NCBI RefSeq assembly: GCF_001664485.1
Contig: NZ_CP013630.1
Span: 2,731,001-2,795,000 of the forward strand
DNA from: Rhizobium sp. N324
GTDB lineage: Bacteria; Pseudomonadota; Alphaproteobacteria; Rhizobiales; Rhizobiaceae
Reading direction: 5' to 3'
Length of the DNA stretch: 64,000 nucleotides
Below the pieces are notes generated by a model that searched no databases, was not told the origin of the DNA, and worked only from the letters and a program-made list of their open reading frames with translations. Of the stretch, positions 50,877 through 60,871 are shown piece after piece (within the stretch, counting starts at the first letter, position 1; every line of letters begins with the position of its first letter). Made by a program: the position numbers and the translations under genes.

Positions 50877-52367
50877 TCAGATCAGCACGCCATCCACATC
50901 GATGGAGATGCTCAGCGTATCCGTATCGAAATGATGCGCAGCCCCATCGGAGATCTTATAGTGGAACGTCTCGCTCACGTCTCCGCTAACTCCGGCAAGC
51001 TTCGCCGCATCGAGCGTGTAGCTATAGTCGCCGTGATCGTCGACATGAATGCTGCCGTATTGGCCGGTCAGCGTCAGACCGTTCTTGCCGACGACTTCGC
51101 CCTCGAAGCGGCGAAGCAGCAGGATCCCATTGGCCGAACTGTCGTTTTCCAAGAGATTGCCATGATGGGCGCCATCCGTGTCGGCTGAGATTTTCAAGCT
51201 GTCATGGGCTGCGACAATTATCGGGGCCACGCCCACATGCGTTGTATCGCCGGCAACGTGACTATCAAGGCTGACAAACAGGGCGTCAGCCTCCTCGAGC
51301 GTCGTGTTGTTGCTGACGGGAAAGGTGTTCGCGGCGATAATGGCCGGCGATATGCTGTAGGGCGTGACATCGCTGGCAATGACATTGTCGTGGAAAGCTC
51401 CGGATGCAGGCCTGTCGACCTTCAGCGCCGCTTGCGACAGGTCGTCGAAAACGTTGTTGTGGACATCGATATCTTCGCGAACGTAACTGGTGGTGCCGGC
51501 GGAACTGACCACCACGCCCCATACGCCGTCATGGATGTAATTGCCTGAGATATCATAGTCCCTGGTGTCGCCCTGGTCGCCGAGGCCGACGGCGTAGGAC
51601 CAGCTGTAGCCGCCATATCCCGATATGTCGTTGTCGTGGATGGCGATATTCGTGCCCGCCTGAGCTGCCACCCCGAAGCCGCCGCCAACCAGTGTGTTGT
51701 CCTCGATCACGGCATTCACAGGCCGGACGAGCGCCAGCACGCCCTTCGGGCTAATGGCGCCCGTCTGGTCGAGATAATTGCCGCTGATCAGGATGTTGCT
51801 GCTGTCGTTCATCTGCACGGCATCTGCCGTGGTGCCGTGGGCATTGGTAACGGTGTTGTTGAGAAGAGTGACGCCATTGATCTTCTCGATCCACACGCCG
51901 TCGCCGTTCACGTCGTTGATCGTGCTGTTTTCGATGGTGATATTCGAGCCTGTTCGGAAGGTGACGGAACCGGACTTGCCGGCCAAGCCGGTGTGATCGA
52001 CCTCGACATTGCGCACCGTCCAGTTCGAGACATAGCCGCCATAAATGGCTGCACCGCCGGTATCCGAGATCTTGATGTTCTCGATGACGATGTTCGACGC
52101 ATAAAGGCTATGAATGCCGTCACCGGGGCTATGGATGACCGGCGCATCGCCGATCCCGTAGCTGCCGATGGTGATCGGGGCGCTGGCGGTGCCGGAATAT
52201 TTCAGGTCGAGCTGGTCGTTATAAACGCTTCCCGCGGCGAGCAGCACGCTATCGCCGGGCTGCAGCTTCAAATTTTCCACCGCCCAGAAGGATGCAAAAG
52301 GCGCATCCTCGCTCGTGCCGCTATTGTTGTTGGCGCCTGTCGCCGAGTTCACATAATAGACTGTCAT
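50877..52367 (-). CDS. Right-handed beta-helix protein with C-terminal VCBS-like domain (copy A)
   Basis: A 496-residue protein starting MTVYYVNSATG. It carries a parallel beta-helix of the pectate-lyase/polysaccharide-lyase type (about residues 30-350; ladders such as IVIENIKISDTGGAAIYGG and NILISGNYLDQ) and a C-terminal VCBS/cadherin-like domain (HHGNLLENDSS, LTLTGQYGSIHVDDHGDYSYTLD). There is no signal peptide, like the rhizobial PlyA/PlyB/Rap proteins exported by the PrsDE type I system. Likely a secreted glycanase or matrix-binding protein. The neighbour at 52699-54189 is a close paralogue. Confidence 0.87.
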   Translation of the reverse strand: MTVYYVNSATGANNNSGTSEDAPFASFWAVENLKLQPGDSVLLAAGSVYNDQLDLKYSGTASAPITIGSYGIGDAPVIHSPGDGIHSLYASNIVIENIKISDTGGAAIYGGYVSNWTVRNVEVDHTGLAGKSGSVTFRTGSNITIENSTINDVNGDGVWIEKINGVTLLNNTVTNAHGTTADAVQMNDSSNILISGNYLDQTGAISPKGVLALVRPVNAVIEDNTLVGGGFGVAAQAGTNIAIHDNDISGYGGYSWSYAVGLGDQGDTRDYDISGNYIHDGVWGVVVSSAGTTSYVREDIDVHNNVFDDLSQAALKVDRPASGAFHDNVIASDVTPYSISPAIIAANTFPVSNNTTLEEADALFVSLDSHVAGDTTHVGVAPIIVAAHDSLKISADTDGAHHGNLLENDSSANGILLLRRFEGEVVGKNGLTLTGQYGSIHVDDHGDYSYTLDAAKLAGVSGDVSETFHYKISDGAAHHFDTDTLSISIDVDGVLI

Positions 52368-52629
52368 ATCGCCATATGCTCGCATTGTCGCGCAGCTGTG
52401 TGGGGATCAGCTGCAATGAGTGGATCGGATGCGGTCGGGGCGAAAGGCCATAGGACAATCTTCGATTGTCACGACGGCGGTAGACAGGCCGTGGCCTGCA
52501 ATGCTCCCGAGAAGCCTGGCGGTGGCTGCATCCACGACAATACAACTTAAGGAAAAATAGTCTACAAAATAACGACTGAGAGGTGAATGAAACGGTAACG
52601 ACCGTTTTGTAAGTAACGTAAGGGAATGG

Positions 52630-52698: not shown

Positions 52699-54189
52699 CT
52701 AGCTCAACAAGCCATCCATATGGATGAAGACGGTCAGCGTATCCGCGTCGCTGTGATGCGAGGTTCCATCGTCGATACCGTACTTGAAAGACTCGCTCAC
52801 ATGTCCGCTATGGTCGTCGGGCAGCTTCGTTTCGTCGAGAGTGTAGGCATAGTTGCCCTCCCGGTCCACGTGCATGGAACCGTAGTCCCCGGTCAGCGTC
52901 AGGCCGTGTTTGCCGACGGCTTCGTCGCTGAAGCGGCGAAGCACCAGGGTGTCGTTGTCGGAGCTGTCGTTTTCCAGAAGGTTGCCGCGATGGGCCTCAC
53001 CCGTATCGGTGAAGATCTTCAGATTGTCATGGACGGCGACGACCGCCGGGTCGGCAGCCGCCTCCGTCGTAGCGGCAGCCTTGGTCTCGGTGCTTGCAAG
53101 CGCCGTGTCGACATTTGCGACCGTGTGGTTGTTACTGACGGAAAATGTGTGCGCGTCGACGATGGCAGGCGATATGCTGGTGGCCTTGACGCCGCTCTCG
53201 ACGGTATTGTTGTAGAAGGAGCCGGATGCCGGCCTGTCGACCTTCAGCGCCGACTGGGTGAGATCGTCGAAGACATTGTCGTGGACCTTGATGCCAGTGA
53301 GACTATAGCTGGAGCCGGTGGCGCCGCTGACGGCCACGCCCCAGGCGCCATCGTGGATATGGTTGCCCGAGATGTCGTAATCCCGCGCACTGCCCTGATC
53401 GCCGAGGCCGACGGCGAAGGACCAGCTGTAACCGTGATATCCCGATATGTCGTTGCCGTGGATGGCAACGTTCTTCCCTCCAGGCGCACTGATGCCAAAG
53501 CCCCCGCCGGTCAGGACACTGTCCGCGACCACGGCATCGGTGGCCCGCACCAGCGCGATCCCCCCCTTCGGACTGACGGCATGCGTCTGGTCGAGATGAT
53601 TGCCCTTGATCAGAATATTGCTGCTGTCGTTGACCTGCATCGCATCGGCCGTCGAGCCATTGGCGCTGGTGACGGTATTGTTGAGAAGTTTGACGCCGCT
53701 GACCTTTTCGATCCAGAAGCCGTCGCCTTTGACATCGGAGATCTTGCTGTCTTCGACCGTGACGTTCTTGCTGCTCCTGAAGGTGACAGCACCTGCGTTT
53801 TCCGACATTCCCGACTTGGCGATCTCGACATTGCGGACCGTCCAGTTGGTGACATCGCCGCCATAGATGGCCGCACCGCCGGTGTTCGATATCTTCAGGT
53901 TCTCGATGACGATGTTCGAGGCATAAAGGCTGTGAATGCCGTCGCCCCCGCTATGGATGACGGGGGTGGCCCCCGTCCCGTAACTGCCGATCTTGATCGG
54001 CGCGCTCTCGGTGCCGGAATATTTGATATCGAATTGCTCGTTGAAGACGCTGCCCTTGGCGAGCAGCACGCTGTCGCCCGGTTTCAACGTCAAGGATTCC
54101 ACTTTGGACAAAGTCGAAAAAGCCGAGTTCTGGCCCGTTCCGCTGTTGCGGTCGGAGCCAGTCGCTGAGTTCACATAGTAGATTGTCAT
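52699..54189 (-). CDS. Right-handed beta-helix protein with C-terminal VCBS-like domain (copy B)
   Basis: A 496-residue paralogue of the neighbouring gene, same direction, about 65-70% identical by eye from MTIYYVNSATGSD to the end. The same layout: no signal peptide, a beta-helix in the first 350 residues, then a Thr/Ala-rich linker (about residues 360-380) that differs from copy A, then LENDSS and a VCBS-like tail ending HMDGLLS. The start is set by alignment with copy A; the upstream 'gcgatATG' is shared. Probably a tandem duplicate with a diverged substrate or partner. Confidence 0.87.
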   Translation of the reverse strand: MTIYYVNSATGSDRNSGTGQNSAFSTLSKVESLTLKPGDSVLLAKGSVFNEQFDIKYSGTESAPIKIGSYGTGATPVIHSGGDGIHSLYASNIVIENLKISNTGGAAIYGGDVTNWTVRNVEIAKSGMSENAGAVTFRSSKNVTVEDSKISDVKGDGFWIEKVSGVKLLNNTVTSANGSTADAMQVNDSSNILIKGNHLDQTHAVSPKGGIALVRATDAVVADSVLTGGGFGISAPGGKNVAIHGNDISGYHGYSWSFAVGLGDQGSARDYDISGNHIHDGAWGVAVSGATGSSYSLTGIKVHDNVFDDLTQSALKVDRPASGSFYNNTVESGVKATSISPAIVDAHTFSVSNNHTVANVDTALASTETKAAATTEAAADPAVVAVHDNLKIFTDTGEAHRGNLLENDSSDNDTLVLRRFSDEAVGKHGLTLTGDYGSMHVDREGNYAYTLDETKLPDDHSGHVSESFKYGIDDGTSHHSDADTLTVFIHMDGLLS

Positions 54190-54434: not shown

Positions 54435-54698
54435 CTATCGTACCTTCCCTCCCCCTCGAACGCGCCGCAGATGATTCGCCCCTGGCCGCGCTTCATTTAG
54501 AAAGGCCGGCCGCGCCGTCGCTTCGGCGAATTTCGCCACCAGTTCGGCGGACTGGCGCCCGGCCAGGATCCGTGGGCCAGGCGCTGTGCGGCGATCCTCT
54601 CGCGCGCCATCATCGAAAGCAAAATGGGGGCAGCCGCGACAGTCGCCGCGGCGCGGACACTTGGCCGGAACGCCGGCCTCGCCGTTTGGTTTGCACAT
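54435..54698 (-). CDS. Small Cys-rich protein downstream of the hemerythrin gene
   Basis: An 87-residue protein from an ATG at 54698 with a clear ribosome site (gggagaag). It starts MCKPNGEAGVPAKCPRRG; Cys2, Cys14, Cys20 and Cys23 have the C-x11-C-x5-C-x2-C spacing of a metal or Fe-S site. The rest (RILAGRQSAELVAKFAEATARPAF) is helical. Same direction as the hemerythrin-like gene and 67 bp behind it. I do not recognise a family; possibly a redox partner. This small gene is easy to miss in annotation. Confidence 0.55.
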   Translation of the reverse strand: MCKPNGEAGVPAKCPRRGDCRGCPHFAFDDGAREDRRTAPGPRILAGRQSAELVAKFAEATARPAFLNEARPGANHLRRVRGGGKVR

Positions 54699-54765
54699 GG
54701 GTCTTCTCCCGATATTCACCGGATGCCGCGGGCGGAGCTTCGGTCCGCCGCCCGCGGCCGTCTTC

Positions 54766-55473
54766 TCAGGCCGCCAGCTTCAGAGCGTCGGCAAGCTTGG
54801 CGAAGTCGCCGGCCGAAAGCCCCGGGCGGACGGCGAAGTCGATGACTGCCTGGAAGATTTCCGGCGGCGCATCTTTCTTCATGGCGCCGAGCAGTGCCGC
54901 CCGCTCCGCCGGATTGATCGCCGGGATCATGATGCGCATGAAGGCCATGCTTTTCTCCGGCGGCAGGGAGCCGATGATGCGCATCTCGATGCCGAAGATT
55001 TCCGGGTCGTCGAAGTTGCGCCACAGCAGCGGGCCGGTCACCGCCTCCTCCTCGTGCATATGCGCGAAGTCGTCGGCGATATAGGCGGCAAAGGCGAGAT
55101 AAAGCTTGCGGCCGCAGGCTGCCTTGTGCAGCGGCCAGGCTTTTTCCCAGGCGACCACAAGCTCTTCCAGCTCGCGGAACGCGGTGCGGTGGTCGTCGTG
55201 CTGCTCGTCGAGCGTGACGGTCGAAACGCCCTTGTCGGCAAGCGCCGTGTGGATGTTGTCGTCCTCGTGCATGACATGGGAGGCGGCCAGCATCAGGTAA
55301 TGGCGCAAGTCGCCGATCAGGAAGACCGTCTCCTCGACATTCTGGAAATCGGTCGTGCCGAGGCGTCCGAGCAGGTCGCAGCCGGCCTTGCGCAGGCCCT
55401 TGTGGATCGCACCGTAAATGTCGTAGCGGCCATTGAGATCGGGAATGCTGGTAAGCGAGAATTCATGGCTCAT
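54766..55473 (-). CDS. Hemerythrin-like protein
   Basis: A 235-residue helical protein with hemerythrin-type metal ligands. The candidates are His24, His66, His69/Glu70, His92/His95 and His138/Glu141 (HVMHEDDNIH, QHDDHRTAF, HMHEEE). Such proteins hold a non-haem di-iron centre that binds O2 or NO. The C-terminus (PAINPAERAALLGAMKKDAPPEIF) is typical of the long bacterial members. The ATG at 55473 follows gagagg. It diverges from a PNPOx-fold gene pair with a phased repeat array between. Confidence 0.82.
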   Translation of the reverse strand: MSHEFSLTSIPDLNGRYDIYGAIHKGLRKAGCDLLGRLGTTDFQNVEETVFLIGDLRHYLMLAASHVMHEDDNIHTALADKGVSTVTLDEQHDDHRTAFRELEELVVAWEKAWPLHKAACGRKLYLAFAAYIADDFAHMHEEEAVTGPLLWRNFDDPEIFGIEMRIIGSLPPEKSMAFMRIMIPAINPAERAALLGAMKKDAPPEIFQAVIDFAVRPGLSAGDFAKLADALKLAA

Positions 55474-55556
55474 GATGGTTATCCTCTCGTTATCAGGCGC
55501 CTCTTTTTGTGCGCCGGGCTGATGACCGTGAGATAACCGAGGCCTTTGCGAGGCGC

Positions 55557-55609
55557 TTCCTAAAACCATCCTAAGCACTTGGAACGATTGCTAAGAATAT
55601 CCTAAGTAT
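55557..55609. promoter_or_regulatory. Phased direct repeats (CCTAAG type) in the hemerythrin/PNPOx promoter
   Basis: TTCCTAAAAC (55557), ATCCTAAGCA (55568), TGCTAAGAAT (55589) and ATCCTAAGTA (55599). Steps are 11, 21 and 10 bp, i.e. one or two helical turns, so all motifs face the same side of the DNA. This is the style of OmpR/SARP-type activator sites. It is 84-136 bp upstream of the hemerythrin ATG and 33-85 bp upstream of the PNPOx ATG. Confidence 0.6.
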
Positions 55610-55641
55610 CTATCATCGCCTGACTTGGGGTGGGGAAAAGC

Positions 55642-56118
55642 ATGCTGGGGCCGGAACTCGCAGAATTCATAGAAAGTCCCGTCATGATACTGTTCGCGAC
55701 GCGCGACGAGGCCGGCCGGCCGATGATCGGCCGCGGCTCCGGCGTGCGCGTCGACCGGCAGAGCGGGCATCTGCACTTTCTCGCCTCTCGCTGCCAATGG
55801 CCTGATGCCGTCAGCGAGGCGCAGGTCGGCCGGCCGATTGCCATGACCTATGTGCGGCCCGCCGACTACAAGGCCTGCCAGATCAAGGGCCGGATCCTCA
55901 CGGCAGGGCCGGCGGACGAGGCCCACCGGGCACAAGGCGAAGCCTATGTCGCAGAACAGCTGGCGCGAATGCTGGCGCTCGGGGTCACCCGCATGCAACT
56001 CTCCAGCACGCTGTCGGACCGGGACCTCGTCTGCCTGACGATCGAGCCGCAGGAAATCTTCGAGCAGACGCCGGGGCCTGGCGCCGGACGCAGGCTGATG
56101 CCGGAAGCCGCCGCATGA
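55642..56118 (+). CDS. PNPOx-fold (pyridoxamine 5'-phosphate oxidase-like) protein
   Basis: A 158-residue flavin-binding split-barrel protein. It begins MLGPELAEFIESPVMILFATRDEAGRPMIGRG, the PNPOx N-terminus, then SGHLHFLASRCQWPDAV. It may bind FMN, F420 or haem and reduce a small substrate. The ATG at 55642 follows gggga. Its stop overlaps the next start by 4 bp (56115-56118). Translationally coupled to the regulator gene that follows. Confidence 0.8.
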   Translation: MLGPELAEFIESPVMILFATRDEAGRPMIGRGSGVRVDRQSGHLHFLASRCQWPDAVSEAQVGRPIAMTYVRPADYKACQIKGRILTAGPADEAHRAQGEAYVAEQLARMLALGVTRMQLSSTLSDRDLVCLTIEPQEIFEQTPGPGAGRRLMPEAAA

Positions 56119-57461
56119 TTCCGCTCGAAGGGCTGCGGGACAGCTTCGAGGGCATCATTCCCTCCATCATCGCTACCGCCGATGCTGACGGAATGCCCAA
56201 TATTTCCTATCTCTCGCACGTGCATTACGTCGATGAGGGGCATGTGGCGCTCTCCGACCAGTTCTTCTCCAAGACCGCCGCCAATGTGGCGCGCAACGGG
56301 CTCGCGACCGTGATGGTGGTCGACGGCTATAGCGGCCAGCAGCACGTGCTCGACCTGGCGTTCGAGCGCTCCGAGACGGAGGGCGAGACATTCGAGCGGA
56401 TGGCGATCCACCTGGAGATCCTGGAAAGCCGGATGAGTGGGATCATGAAGCTGCGCGCCGTCGACATCTACCGGGTGGAGGACTGCCGGGCCGTGCCGGC
56501 GGCCAATCCGCTGGTCGAGCCGGAGCCGCTCTTTCTGCCCGACCTGATGGGCAAGGTGGCGCGGCTGACGGCACGGATGTCGGATTGCAGCGATCCGGAA
56601 ACGCTGCTCGACGCCACGCTCGAGGGCCTGGGCGAGCTCTTCGGCTACCACAATTCCATGGTGCTGGTGCCGGACGGCGAACGCGGCGGGCTGACGACAA
56701 TCGGCAGCCGGGGCTACGACCAGTTCGGCTTCGGCGCCGAGGTTCCGGCCGGGCGCGGCATTGTCGGACTTGCGGCCGAGCGGCGGCGCAACGTGCGGAT
56801 CACCGATCTCAGCCGCGGCCTGCGCTATATCAAGGCCGTGCAGGCCATGGCGGGCGTCGAGGATGCGACGCCGATCCCGCTTCCGGCGCTCGAAAAGCCG
56901 CTCAGCCAGATCGCGCTGCCGCTTGTCGCGCGGGGAAGGCTCGTCGGCGTGCTGTTTTCGGAAGCGACCGAGCGCTTCACCTTCCGCCATCGCGACGAGG
57001 AAGCGCTGATCGTGATCGCCGCCCATCTCGCCACCGCGCTCTCCTTCCTGTCCGAGGAACGCGAGCGGGCGGAGACGAACGGGCGGGAAAAGGCCGAGGC
57101 CCCGGCCGACGAGGCCGCCAGCGCGCCCGCCGATCGGCGCATCGCCGTTCGTTTCTATCCGCGCGACGGCTCGCTGTTCATCGACGACGACTATCTGATC
57201 CGCGGCGTGCCGGGGCGGCTGCTCCTGCACTTTCTCCAAGACTATGCGCGCACCGGCAAGCGGGACTTTCTGAACCGCGAGATCCGCCGCGACCGTCGCC
57301 TGCAACTGCCCGACTTCAAGGACAATTTGGAAACCCGGCTGATCCTCCTGCGCCGGCGACTGGAGGAGAAGGCAGGCCCGATCACACTCGAACGCGCCGA
57401 CCGCGGCCGCCTGCGGCTGACGCTCGCCGGGCGGCCGGAGATCGAGGTGGTGGAGGAATGA
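56115..57461 (+). CDS. PNPOx-GAF-winged-helix sensor/regulator
   Basis: A 448-residue fusion: a PNPOx-fold domain (about 8-125, IIPSIIATADADGMPNISYL), a GAF domain (about 150-310, PDGERGGLTTIGSRGYDQFG and IALPLVARGRLVGVLF), a linker, and a C-terminal winged helix (about 345-440, GSLFIDDDYLIRGVPGRLLLHFL ... FKDNLETRLILLRRRLEEK) like OmpR/SARP DNA-binding domains. It looks like a one-component sensor with a flavin- or haem-type input and a GAF input. It is coupled to the PNPOx gene and diverges from hemerythrin. The domain borders are by eye. Confidence 0.78.
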   Translation: MIPLEGLRDSFEGIIPSIIATADADGMPNISYLSHVHYVDEGHVALSDQFFSKTAANVARNGLATVMVVDGYSGQQHVLDLAFERSETEGETFERMAIHLEILESRMSGIMKLRAVDIYRVEDCRAVPAANPLVEPEPLFLPDLMGKVARLTARMSDCSDPETLLDATLEGLGELFGYHNSMVLVPDGERGGLTTIGSRGYDQFGFGAEVPAGRGIVGLAAERRRNVRITDLSRGLRYIKAVQAMAGVEDATPIPLPALEKPLSQIALPLVARGRLVGVLFSEATERFTFRHRDEEALIVIAAHLATALSFLSEERERAETNGREKAEAPADEAASAPADRRIAVRFYPRDGSLFIDDDYLIRGVPGRLLLHFLQDYARTGKRDFLNREIRRDRRLQLPDFKDNLETRLILLRRRLEEKAGPITLERADRGRLRLTLAGRPEIEVVEE

Positions 57462-57793: not shown

Positions 57794-59032
57794 CTACCCT
57801 CTCGCCCGCAACGCCGCGCGGAGCGGCAGCCGCGCAGCTGCTAACGCCGGCAGGGCGCCGCCGATCACCCCGACCGCCAGCCCGAGCAAACCCGCCGTCA
57901 AAAGCACATCCGGCGTCACCACAAGCTGAAACGCCATCTTGGTGTTGTTGGCGCCCATCGTGCTCGCCTGCCAGCCGTCAAAGGCGAGCCGCGAGGCGAT
58001 GCCGCCGGCGGCCGCGCCGAGAGCCGAGAGCAGCACCGCCTCCACCCAGGTGGCGGCGAAGGCCGGCAGGCGGGCAAAGCCGAGGAGGCGCAGCGTGGCG
58101 ATCTCGATGGCGCGATCGGAAACCGAGCTCATCATCGTGTTCAGGGCGCCGGCGGTTGCGCCAATCGCCATCAGAAGCGCGACCGGCCAGCCGAACAGGC
58201 GGATCAGGCTCTCGATGCGCTCGGCCTGGCCGGCATAGAGATCGGCCTCGGAGACGACGGCAAGCGGCGGACCCGGCAGCGTGGACAGCCGTTCCCGCAG
58301 CGCCGCCAGCGCCCTTTGCGGATCGTCGCCGGCAAGCCGCACCCGCAGGCTCTGCACCTGCCCCTGCCGGCCGAAGGCCGATTGCACGGCTTCGAGATCA
58401 GCCCATATCTCGGATTCGAAGGCGCTGCCGCCTGATGTGAAATGGCCGGCGACCCACCAGTCGACCGCGCCGAGCCGTACCGTGTCGCCGACCGCAAGGC
58501 CCGGGAAGGCATCCGCGAGGCGGGCCCCGATGACGATCTCACGCCCACCCGGCGCAAACAGCCGCCCCTCTGAAAGCCGGGCACGCTGGCGCATCGCAGG
58601 TCCGGCCGGGTCCATGCCCCGCAGCGACAGCGTCTGCTCGACGCCGTCGGCGGCCCTGACATCGATGGGAACGACGACCTCGCGCGACATCGCCAGACCG
58701 CCCGCCCCATCGCCCGGACCGGCGCGGGCAATCCCAGGGTTGCGGGCAATCCCGGTGTCGCCACTCGCCGCAGCAAGGCTGCGGATTGCTTCGGCAGGCA
58801 CGTCCGAGCCGGTCTCCTGGTTGGTGCCGCCGCCGAGGATGACGGCGATATCAGGCGAGCCGGCCCCGGCAAGCGCTGCCTCGAAGCCGCGCGCCATTGC
58901 CAGAAATCCAGCGAGCACCGCCACGACGAGCGCCACCGACAGCACCATCGACAGCGAGATCGCAAGCCGCCTGGGCAGGCTGCCGAGATTGACTCTGATC
59001 ATGAGAAAGATCTGCTTGAGCGCTGAAGACAT
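57794..59032 (-). CDS. MacB/FtsX-type ABC permease (second permease of efflux operon)
   Basis: A 412-residue permease with one N-terminal helix, a large periplasmic MacB-like domain (about 45-280) and three C-terminal helices (FtsX fold). Start ATG at 59032 (MSSALKQIFLMIRVNL). It lies 4 bp behind the first permease. With that protein, the ATPase and the HlyD-like adaptor it forms a DevBCA/MacAB-type exporter. Heteromeric permeases are a sign of the DevBCA-like branch. Confidence 0.88.
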   Translation of the reverse strand: MSSALKQIFLMIRVNLGSLPRRLAISLSMVLSVALVVAVLAGFLAMARGFEAALAGAGSPDIAVILGGGTNQETGSDVPAEAIRSLAAASGDTGIARNPGIARAGPGDGAGGLAMSREVVVPIDVRAADGVEQTLSLRGMDPAGPAMRQRARLSEGRLFAPGGREIVIGARLADAFPGLAVGDTVRLGAVDWWVAGHFTSGGSAFESEIWADLEAVQSAFGRQGQVQSLRVRLAGDDPQRALAALRERLSTLPGPPLAVVSEADLYAGQAERIESLIRLFGWPVALLMAIGATAGALNTMMSSVSDRAIEIATLRLLGFARLPAFAATWVEAVLLSALGAAAGGIASRLAFDGWQASTMGANNTKMAFQLVVTPDVLLTAGLLGLAVGVIGGALPALAAARLPLRAALRARG

Positions 59033-59036
59033 TGGA

Positions 59037-60176
59037 CTATCTCGTTCTGAAAGCATTGACGATGGGCAGCCGCATGGCGCTGTAAGCGGGCAACAACCCG
59101 GTCAGCAGGCCGAGCCCGGCGATGATGGCTGCGGATTTCAGCAGCACCGCCGCGCCGAAGACGAGGCCGAAGGCCGGCCCGATCAGGAGTGCGGCAAGCT
59201 TGGCGAGGACGAGCCCGCCCGCGCCGCCGACGGCGAAGATGAACAGCGTCTCGCCGAGGATCAGCGCCACGATCCGCCCGCGGGAAAAGCCGAGCACCTT
59301 CATGACACCGATCTCGAAACGACGCTCGCGCACGGCAAACAGCATGGTGTTCACAGCGATCATCAGGATGGTGACGAAGGCCGCACCGACGACGAGGCTG
59401 ACGATGAGGCCGACATCGGCGAATTGCCGGAGGAACGCCTCGAGGAACTGCTTTTCCGATTGCGTCCGCGTCTGCGCCGCCGAATTGGCAAACAGAGCGT
59501 CGATCCGCGCCGCCAGTATGCCTGGCGACACGCCCGGGCGCGGACGCACCACGAAGGCGTCGACCATATCCTTGTCGCGCGCACGAGCGGCATTGAGCGC
59601 ATCGTAGCGGGCGAGCATGAAATAGGTGTCCGTGCCGGCATCGGCACCCTCGAAGATGCCCGCGATGGTGAAATTCCAATTCCGGCTGCCGTCGGCCTTC
59701 ATGATCTGGCTGGTGAGGCCGATGCGCTGGCCGATCGACCAGCCCTGCGCCTCGGCCAATGCCCTGCCGACCAGCACCCGGTCGCCACCGTCTTCCAGCG
59801 CCGCGATCAGCTCGGACGTCAGCCCGAGTTCGGCGCCATTGGCGGCGGCAATCGCCCGCGGATCGACCGCGCTGACGGCCACGACATTCTTCTCGACCTC
59901 GACGAAACCCCGCATCCGCGTGGTATAGGCGACGGCGGCGACATCGCCTTCCGCCGCGATGCGGTTGAGATAAGCAATCGGCAGCGGCAGCCCCCGGCCG
60001 GATTTGTTGAACACGCCGAGCAGATTGTCGCTGGCGCCGGCCGCCCCCTGGCTGCCGCTGACGAAACTCGCCGTCAGTCCGTAGATCAGGAAAGCGATGC
60101 CGACCGAAAACATCAGCAGGATCGCCCGCAACCGCTTGCGCCAGGCATTGCGCCGCATCAGCTGGAAAAAACTCAT
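59037..60176 (-). CDS. MacB/FtsX-type ABC permease (first permease of efflux operon)
   Basis: A 379-residue permease. It shows the same FtsX layout: N-terminal helix (LRAILLMFSVGIAFLIYGL), periplasmic domain with GSQGAAGAS and GFVEVEKN segments, then three C-terminal helices. Its start overlaps the ATPase stop by 4 bp (60173-60176). Only weakly similar to the other permease, so the two form a heterodimer. Confidence 0.88.
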   Translation of the reverse strand: MSFFQLMRRNAWRKRLRAILLMFSVGIAFLIYGLTASFVSGSQGAAGASDNLLGVFNKSGRGLPLPIAYLNRIAAEGDVAAVAYTTRMRGFVEVEKNVVAVSAVDPRAIAAANGAELGLTSELIAALEDGGDRVLVGRALAEAQGWSIGQRIGLTSQIMKADGSRNWNFTIAGIFEGADAGTDTYFMLARYDALNAARARDKDMVDAFVVRPRPGVSPGILAARIDALFANSAAQTRTQSEKQFLEAFLRQFADVGLIVSLVVGAAFVTILMIAVNTMLFAVRERRFEIGVMKVLGFSRGRIVALILGETLFIFAVGGAGGLVLAKLAALLIGPAFGLVFGAAVLLKSAAIIAGLGLLTGLLPAYSAMRLPIVNAFRTR

Positions 60177-60871
60177 CGGCCTTCCCCCTCAGTGAATTCG
60201 CCTTTGTTGAGATGCAGCGTGCGCCGGGCAAAGGCAGCGGCCTCGGGATCGTGCGTGACCATGATGATGGTCTTCTGAAGTTCGCGATTGAGCAAATCAA
60301 GCATCTCCAGGATATCATTGGCCGATTTCCGGTCGAGATCGCCGGTCGGCTCGTCGCAGAGGATGAGATCCGGATCGGCGACGATGGCACGCGCAATGCC
60401 GACGCGCTGCTGCTGCCCGCCCGACATGCTGGACGGAAACTGCCGCTGCCGCCCAGAAAGCCCGACGAGATCCATGACCGTATCGACACGCGCCCGCCTC
60501 TCCCTCCGCGTCAGCGGCTTCAAGAGCAGCGGCAGCTCGATATTGTCAGCCGCATTCAGCATCGGCAGCAGATTGTAGAACTGGAAGACGATGCCCAGGC
60601 TGTGCGCCCGCCAAGCCGCCCTGGCGCCCTCGCCCATCTGCTCAAGCCGGCTGCGCCCGATCCGGATCTCCCCGGCGTCGGCACTGTCGATGCCGCCCAG
60701 CATATTCAGCAGCGTCGATTTCCCCGAACCCGACGGCCCCATCACCGCGACGAAATCGCCGCGCGGAATGACAAGATCCAGCCCCGAGAAGATCGGTATG
60801 GTCTCCGCCCCGATCCGGAACGCCTTCCTGACGCCGGCTAGCGCGATATAGGGCTCTTGAGTGTCGGTCAT
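60173..60871 (-). CDS. MacB-type ABC exporter ATPase
   Basis: A 232-residue ATPase. Walker A GPSGSGKST (about 46-54), signature MSGGQQQRVG, Walker B LILCDEPTGDLD and the switch His in MVTHDPEA. The LolD/MacB-type QFYNLLP at the Q-loop marks a lipoprotein-release or efflux ATPase. It precedes its two permeases with a 4-bp overlap. It follows the adaptor gene after a 206-bp repeat-filled gap. Confidence 0.92.
   Translation of the reverse strand: MTDTQEPYIALAGVRKAFRIGAETIPIFSGLDLVIPRGDFVAVMGPSGSGKSTLLNMLGGIDSADAGEIRIGRSRLEQMGEGARAAWRAHSLGIVFQFYNLLPMLNAADNIELPLLLKPLTRRERRARVDTVMDLVGLSGRQRQFPSSMSGGQQQRVGIARAIVADPDLILCDEPTGDLDRKSANDILEMLDLLNRELQKTIIMVTHDPEAAAFARRTLHLNKGEFTEGEGR

Follow-up and report, generated by a model that had tools for sequence, protein, structure and literature searches.

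A two-gene regulatory cassette, PNP-REG, was identified in a 64,000-nucleotide stretch of Rhizobium sp. N324 (NZ_CP013630.1, positions 2,731,001 to 2,795,000; hereafter the window), where it faces the gene of a hemerythrin-like di-iron protein, HEM. The sensor cassette is real and widely conserved, has an operator that can be identified and an effector that is exchanged, and constitutes a variant of one-component regulator, not a new kind of system. It looks portable, since in distant bacteria it recurs with its operator next to very different genes of oxidation or detoxification. The gene coupling, the predicted fold, the operator with its link to a divergent arrangement and the swapping of partners were computed directly. 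The cassette probably acts as a local one-component redox or small-molecule sensor that controls one exchangeable effector operon, here that of the di-iron protein. An earlier sequence-only reading had placed four open reading frames (ORFs) within 54435-57461. All four were recovered at its coordinates, the minus strand carrying CYS and HEM and the plus strand PNP and REG. The features of the region are the following.

54435..54698, minus strand: CYS, small ORF of 87 aa with the conserved cysteine pattern MC-x11-C-x5-C-x2-C
54766..55473, minus strand: HEM, hemerythrin-like di-iron protein of 235 aa (PF01814, FBXL5 match, conserved ligands)
55531..55536, minus strand: possible HEM -10 element TTATCT
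55557..55574, plus strand: operator site 1, TTCCTAAAACCATCCTAA, HEM-proximal CTAA repeat pair
55588..55605, plus strand: operator site 2, TTGCTAAGAATATCCTAA, PNP-proximal CTAA repeat pair, 31 bp from site 1
55588..55616, plus strand: PNP-REG promoter TTGCTA-17-TATCAT, tentatively predicted by consensus scan, overlapping operator site 2
55642..56118, plus strand: PNP, PNPOx-like subunit with a C-terminal QTPG..AG signature (PNPOx_N matches in homologues)
56115..57461, plus strand: REG, PNPOx-GAF-winged helix one-component regulator of 448 aa, in ATGA overlap with PNP
56124..56492, plus strand: REG PNPOx domain, residues ~4-126 (PNPOx_N, 3in6 match, structure model)
56529..57065, plus strand: REG GAF domain, residues ~139-317
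57138..57449, plus strand: REG OmpR/PhoB-type winged helix, residues ~342-445 (predicted fold)

Conservation of PNP-REG and exchange of partners

The 4-bp overlap of PNP and REG was read in the sequence as ATGA at 56115-56118. Across 85 sequences (L001-L084 and the window, redundancy included), PNP accompanied REG in 83 and HEM was present in 45, while the two sequences without PNP, L080 and L084, match just part of REG. The overlap and this near-universal pairing suggest that PNP and REG work together in one complex.

REG was matched in 38 of 394 genomes of the family, one match being a 28-residue remnant, and in 9 of 398 genomes of the phylum, where one copy has an internal stop. A scan of named-species genomes gave 51 REG loci. 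The taxa include Rhizobium, Ciceribacter, Mesorhizobium, Tistrella, Zavarzinia, Dechloromonas and other Betaproteobacteria, as well as Acidobacteriota, Bdellovibrionota and an actinobacterial bin, with a short match in a Chloroflexi bin. REG is closest to its counterparts in Rhizobium ecuadorense (97% identity) and R. phaseoli (94%), and in the annotations consulted proteins of this type are named only ‘GAF domain-containing protein’, ‘transcriptional regulator’ or ‘adenylate cyclase’. A REG remnant with 28 matched residues (L121:2928-4633) lies near an antibiotic biosynthesis monooxygenase.

Partners were found by gene calling and clustering around REG, with Pfam searches on representatives. 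The divergent partner classes are HEM, a flavin monooxygenase (PF00743), a cupin (PF07883), a FAD_binding_4/BBE oxidase (PF01565, PF08031) and an NmrA-like oxidoreductase (PF05368). The cupin is often followed by an arylamine N-acetyltransferase (PF00797), and YceI (PF04264) lies on the partner strand in 14 of 67 loci; the cupin, N-acetyltransferase and YceI version is carried by plasmid p42e of Rhizobium etli CFN 42 under the locus tags RHE_RS24895/24900, annotated by domain names only. E1 alpha/beta genes occur downstream in eight loci, mostly of Betaproteobacteria, seven of which also have a c-type cytochrome. On the REG tree of 65 rows (66 were picked, and one, L082 by group counts, was removed by the coverage filter), 20 HEM loci fall on one side of one branch with a support of 82. 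Partner changes on this tree number 6 for the six named classes and 12 for all seven groups including ‘other’.

The neighbourhood search that the sequence-only reading had put forward as a check thus found PNP-REG coupled across several phyla and HEM divergent throughout one clade, contrary to the refuting case it had named, a neighbourhood without conservation in other genomes. Its proposal of one unit of four genes stands as to a conserved unit but not as to the set: the core is PNP-REG, HEM is swappable and CYS was matched in Rhizobium relatives alone. The four-gene module was ruled out as the unit, since PNP-REG is stable whereas HEM and CYS vary.

The families of the partner genes hint at stress of a redox or small-molecule kind, which is broader than the NO/O2 signal first suggested. 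A narrower form of this reading, in which the cassette senses an aromatic or electrophilic ligand of the xenobiotic or quinone type and the effectors, HEM included, serve in detoxification or redox repair, is possible but put by us at below even chances. The flavin monooxygenase, arylamine N-acetyltransferase, cupin, FAD_binding_4/BBE, NmrA and YceI partners would all suit it, whereas the E1 alpha/beta and cytochrome c neighbours of the betaproteobacterial loci fit less well.

The operator and the promoters

The intergenic region 55474-55641 holds CTAA-N7-CTAA twice, reading towards PNP, within 11-bp direct repeats, TTSCTAARWNNWTSCTAA, of which the window has two copies 31 bp apart. Among 86 upstream regions drawn from REG loci and distinct by their central 220 bp, the strict CTAA-N7-CTAA towards PNP was found in 58 and the reverse orientation in none, against a mean of 0.1 and a maximum of 1 in first-order Markov resamples. 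When all CTAA spacers from 2 to 19 were counted, a spacer of 7 occurred in 58 regions, 16 in 37, 11 in 13, 17 and 18 in 6 each and 15 in 3, with all others at 0; the spacer of 16 is the gap between the two repeat pairs. The distance between pairs, counted over redundant loci, was 31 bp in 28 cases, 32 bp in five and 33 bp in one. The extended consensus is approximately CGnTTSCTAAAWNNWTSCTAAG, in which the core letters are invariant by construction because sites were collected by the strict core. The repeats are also the main conserved blocks in an alignment of 13 intergenic regions. In 11 loci of the betaproteobacterial group, no repeated 5-mer at 10-12 bp was common to more than 2.

The scan for the PNP promoter gave one sigma-70-like site compared to a mean of 0.2 in shuffles. 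The possible HEM -10 element sits ~20 bp from operator site 1, and the TA of this stretch is invariant in the 13 aligned regions. Each repeat pair may therefore sit close to the -35 region of one of the two promoters. As the operators are shared at the divergent region, REG would control both arms, which agrees with what the sequence-only reading had claimed.

In the 7.0 Mb genome of the window, the extended motif with up to one mismatch occurs at 3 sites, as many as for the reversed control (3), and CTAA-N6-S-CTAA occurs 10 times, more rarely than its reversed controls (34 and 36). A large REG regulon was rejected, as these counts are no higher than controls, and by its motif REG looks like a local regulator. 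It is improbable that some other, global factor occupies the CTAA repeats while REG acts elsewhere or otherwise. Some REG clades do lack the repeats, but the extended motif without mismatch is found only at this region, in its two copies (the third site, L153, has one mismatch), the repeats track REG across phyla as the partner changes, and an OmpR/PhoB fold suits their period.

Link of the operator to the divergent layout

The layout was compared in 67 loci (L060 and L119 being one contig), with a recurrent divergent partner defined as a named family on the opposite strand within 3.5 kb upstream. Such a partner was present in 50 loci. The strict operator was found in 40 of them and, once one change was allowed, in 49, all but L110, whose cupin lies ~1 kb off. 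The operator with at most one change occurred in 0 of the 17 loci without a recurrent divergent partner. For this relaxed form, resampling gave a mean of 3.2 of 67 (maximum 8) and the reverse strand 2 of 67. PNP and the named partner are separated by a further gene in L087, L101 and L106, and some of the 17 (e.g., L075, L079 and L104) have a different divergent neighbour. In the FAD/BBE clade of 13 loci, the one-off variant [AG]TAAAARAATGCTAA was present wherever BBE is divergent (six loci) and absent from the other seven. Since the loci are related and strict operator presence requires only 2 changes on the REG tree, the contrast of 50 and 17 loci does not amount to 67 independent trials. What gives the operator argument its strength is that the motif persists, beside different partners, all the way from Bdellovibrionota and Acidobacteriota to Rhizobium.

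Six genomes of the phylum sample lie outside the family of the window (L167-L172), and the operator occurs in three of their six loci, or two of five new ones, as L167 is probably the same locus as L063 of Zavarzinia. Two strict operator pairs accompany the flavin monooxygenase in L170. A single strict pair occurs in L171, where the neighbour is a 133-aa membrane-like protein with a match to DUF2871 that stays below cut-off (E 0.011). No operator pairs were found in L168, L169 and L172. The ORFs upstream of PNP in L168 resemble, by eye, an aromatic-ring FAD monooxygenase and a gentisate dioxygenase-type cupin, a hint of aromatic compounds.

Domain architecture of REG and PNP

The PNPOx and GAF domains assigned to REG by the sequence-only reading both scored above their Pfam cut-offs, with 36.6 bits for PNPOx_N (cut-off 28.1), which places the domain in the PNPOx fold, and 52.4 bits for GAF_2 (cut-off 28.6). 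The PNPOx domain also matches the FMN-binding protein 3in6 in the PDB (E 3.5e-5). Residues S47, K53 and N57 are conserved in 47, 45 and 50 of 50 rows, respectively, in a stretch that we take to resemble the flavin-phosphate motif of the PNPOx fold.

The winged helix also held, on the basis of AlphaFold and structure comparison. Comparison of the full-length model was swamped by GAF matches, and the C-terminus was therefore folded alone. Residues 342-445 are predicted to form an OmpR/PhoB-type winged helix, and the model has the N-terminal beta sheet, three helices and C-terminal beta hairpin of that fold, as in the effectors of PhoB, BaeR and SaeR; PDB 1gxp (PhoB on pho box DNA) is among its structural matches. 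By sequence, Pfam gave no match to this region better than E 0.22 among 15 members, and no PDB match was found up to E 10. OmpR/PhoB effector domains bind head-to-tail direct-repeat sites with a period of ~10-11 bp, and the pho box consists of head-to-tail 11-bp direct repeats, which the REG operator resembles. The repeats in the DNA have the 11-bp period that such sites would require, and this fit with the fold makes REG the candidate operator-binding factor. In contrast to OmpR/PhoB response regulators, the N-terminus of REG consists of PNPOx and GAF domains. A receiver domain with a phosphorylatable Asp was not found in REG, for which Pfam gave only PNPOx_N and GAF-type matches, so no phosphorelay is expected. 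A related C-terminus was observed in L120:4348-5333, where a cupin is followed by an ORF that ends in a REG-like winged helix and has no PNPOx or GAF matches.

PNP starts at ATG 55642 or GTG 55630. Its assignment to the PNPOx fold holds in part: the window copy reaches 13.7 bits to PNPOx_N, below the cut-off of 28.1, but PNPOx_N, and no other family, is matched at E<=0.01 by 17 of 53 homologues, and the PNP of L083 lies above the cut-off with 32.5 bits. Q84, K86, Q146-T147-P148-G149 and G153 are invariant in all 53 rows. In profile comparison, PNP residues 8-120 align to the REG PNPOx domain (probability 82, E 1e-5), and in the PDB PNP matches HupZ weakly (E 0.004). PNPOx-fold FMN and haem proteins (3in6, HutZ, HupZ) are thus weakly matched by both PNP and the REG N-domain, but here the PNPOx domains lie within, or are coupled to, a DNA-binding regulator. 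We tentatively propose, with more doubt than confidence, that PNP and the REG PNPOx domain form a mixed split-barrel dimer around flavin or a similar cofactor. The pair would then be an undescribed class of one-component redox sensor with OmpR/PhoB output, a mobile two-gene cassette with its operator whose effector is exchanged by clade and which in Rhizobium drives a bacterial FBXL5-like di-iron protein.

The di-iron protein HEM

The best start of HEM is ATG 55473, because the longer GTG frame from 55578 would cross the operator. Its call as a hemerythrin was upheld at the margin, as the window copy scores exactly the PF01814 cut-off (25.3 bits), with 38.4 bits in L082 and 26.4 in L062. Residues H24, H66, E70, H92, H138 and E142 are invariant in 20 of 20 rows. 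These four His and two bridging Glu are arranged as H, HxxxE, H, HxxxE, the order of RIC/YtfE and likewise of FBXL5; HxxH stands at 92-95 (H92 in 20 of 20 and H95 in 19 of 20) and HxxxE at 138-142 (20 of 20). The sole molecule matched by the HEM profile in the PDB was the human FBXL5 hemerythrin domain (3v5x, 3u9j; E 6e-11 over ~140 residues). Unlike FBXL5, HEM is bacterial, has an extra ~65 C-terminal residues and shows no F-box or leucine-rich repeat match. Apart from ligand order, the likeness to RIC/YtfE consists of weak matches to TIGR03652 (RIC) in 15 of 20 members (best E 3.9e-5), whereas window HEM, at 12.6 bits against a cut-off of 204.7, scores far outside that family, and Pfam finds no N-terminal domain besides hemerythrin.

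O2-carrying hemerythrins have a five-His/Glu/Asp ligand set with HxxxH and HxxxxD motifs. HEM was rejected as an O2 carrier, as its ligand pattern differs, and the bacteriohemerythrin family was absent among its NCBIfam matches. A published analysis (PMC4919030) states that O2 is not bound at the iron site of FBXL5 and that the hemerythrins which do bind O2 are a group apart. Given its FBXL5/RIC-type ligands and that statement on FBXL5, HEM suits the role of an iron, NO or reactive-oxygen protein better than that of an O2 carrier. As to the role first suggested, protection against or reporting of NO or O2, O2 carriage is thus unlikely from the four His and two Glu, and the handling of NO or reactive oxygen stays in play.

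We consider it unlikely that the locus is an NO/O2 module in which HEM is the sensor reporting to a gas-specific REG. Such a module would account for the RIC/YtfE-type ligands and for the HEM homologues located downstream of REG, on the opposite strand, in two of the out-of-family genomes (L168 and L172). However, in other loci unrelated enzymes take the place of HEM in front of this operator and regulator, a replacement more in keeping with an output than with a sensor.

When HEM alone was compared with the 394 family genomes, matches were found in 18. HEM adjoins REG in all 10 genomes with at least 50% identity; one of these, G128, has an extra copy (L136) elsewhere, near a transposase-like ORF and without the operator. 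In the remaining 8, at 34-40% identity, HEM is not beside REG. No CTAA-N7-CTAA was found in the loci of the second copy L136 or of the eight distant homologues (L142-L149). L150, with HEM beside REG, has no strict operator but carries, as L060/L007, two one-off copies. The patchy distribution of REG in the family, one remnant included, could be taken to mean that the genes hitch-hike without functional link, but this is very improbable, as the 10 of 10 adjacency and the conserved operator between HEM and PNP-REG speak against it. In L145, the distant HEM homologue (34%) is divergent from a LysR-like ORF (by eye), so that the HEM-type di-iron family may recruit different regulators.

CYS and neighbouring genes

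CYS was matched in 24 loci including the window, all of close Rhizobium relatives, and a pattern search for its motif in the other HEM loci was negative in 18 of 18. C2, C14, C20 and C23 occur in 17 of 17 aligned sequences; conservation is limited to the first ~26 residues, with an unconserved tail. The codon differences (51 synonymous and 68 non-synonymous, 24 codons) moderately support coding, and CYS is possibly a metal-binding peptide. In Pfam the window copy of CYS gave no match above cut-off.

Beside these genes, 57794-60871 on the minus strand encodes two FtsX permeases and an ABC ATPase (a MacB-like set). On the other side, 50877-52385 and 52699-54189 are tandem paralogous ORFs of 502 and 496 aa with ..YYVNSATG.. 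near the start of both, which by eye resemble right-handed beta-helix proteins with a VCBS-like tail. A similar pair is also found in L034-L036 and L040.

Proposed mechanism and significance

In the mechanism that we infer, the PNPOx and GAF domains of REG would sense a redox cofactor or a small molecule, and the translationally coupled PNP probably takes part in this. The winged helix of REG would bind the 11-bp direct repeats head-to-tail and thereby govern how strongly two operons are transcribed, its own and the divergent one of the effector. The effector here, the RIC/FBXL5-type HEM, may act on NO, on reactive oxygen or on iron centres that have been damaged. Elsewhere, depending on the clade, cassette and operator stand beside the flavin monooxygenase, the cupin with N-acetyltransferase (often with YceI), the FAD oxidase or NmrA. 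Divergent one-component regulators beside their target are known from the LysR, MarR and HxlR types, and a REG next to a redox enzyme has the same layout; PNP-REG differs from these in its sensor and DNA-binding domains, its two-gene core and the exchange of partners with the operator kept. A literature search over titles and abstract openings, with most subscription journals outside its coverage, gave no paper on a PNP-REG regulator.

If correct, this would assign an operator and target genes to a widespread and vaguely annotated regulator, and PNPOx-fold proteins would join the sensors of one-component transcription factors. The strong conservation of the operator would allow targets to be predicted in new genomes, and the recurrent partners would make the signal directly testable in laboratory strains of Rhizobium. 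Bacterial relatives of the iron-sensing domain of FBXL5 would also be placed under a defined regulator.

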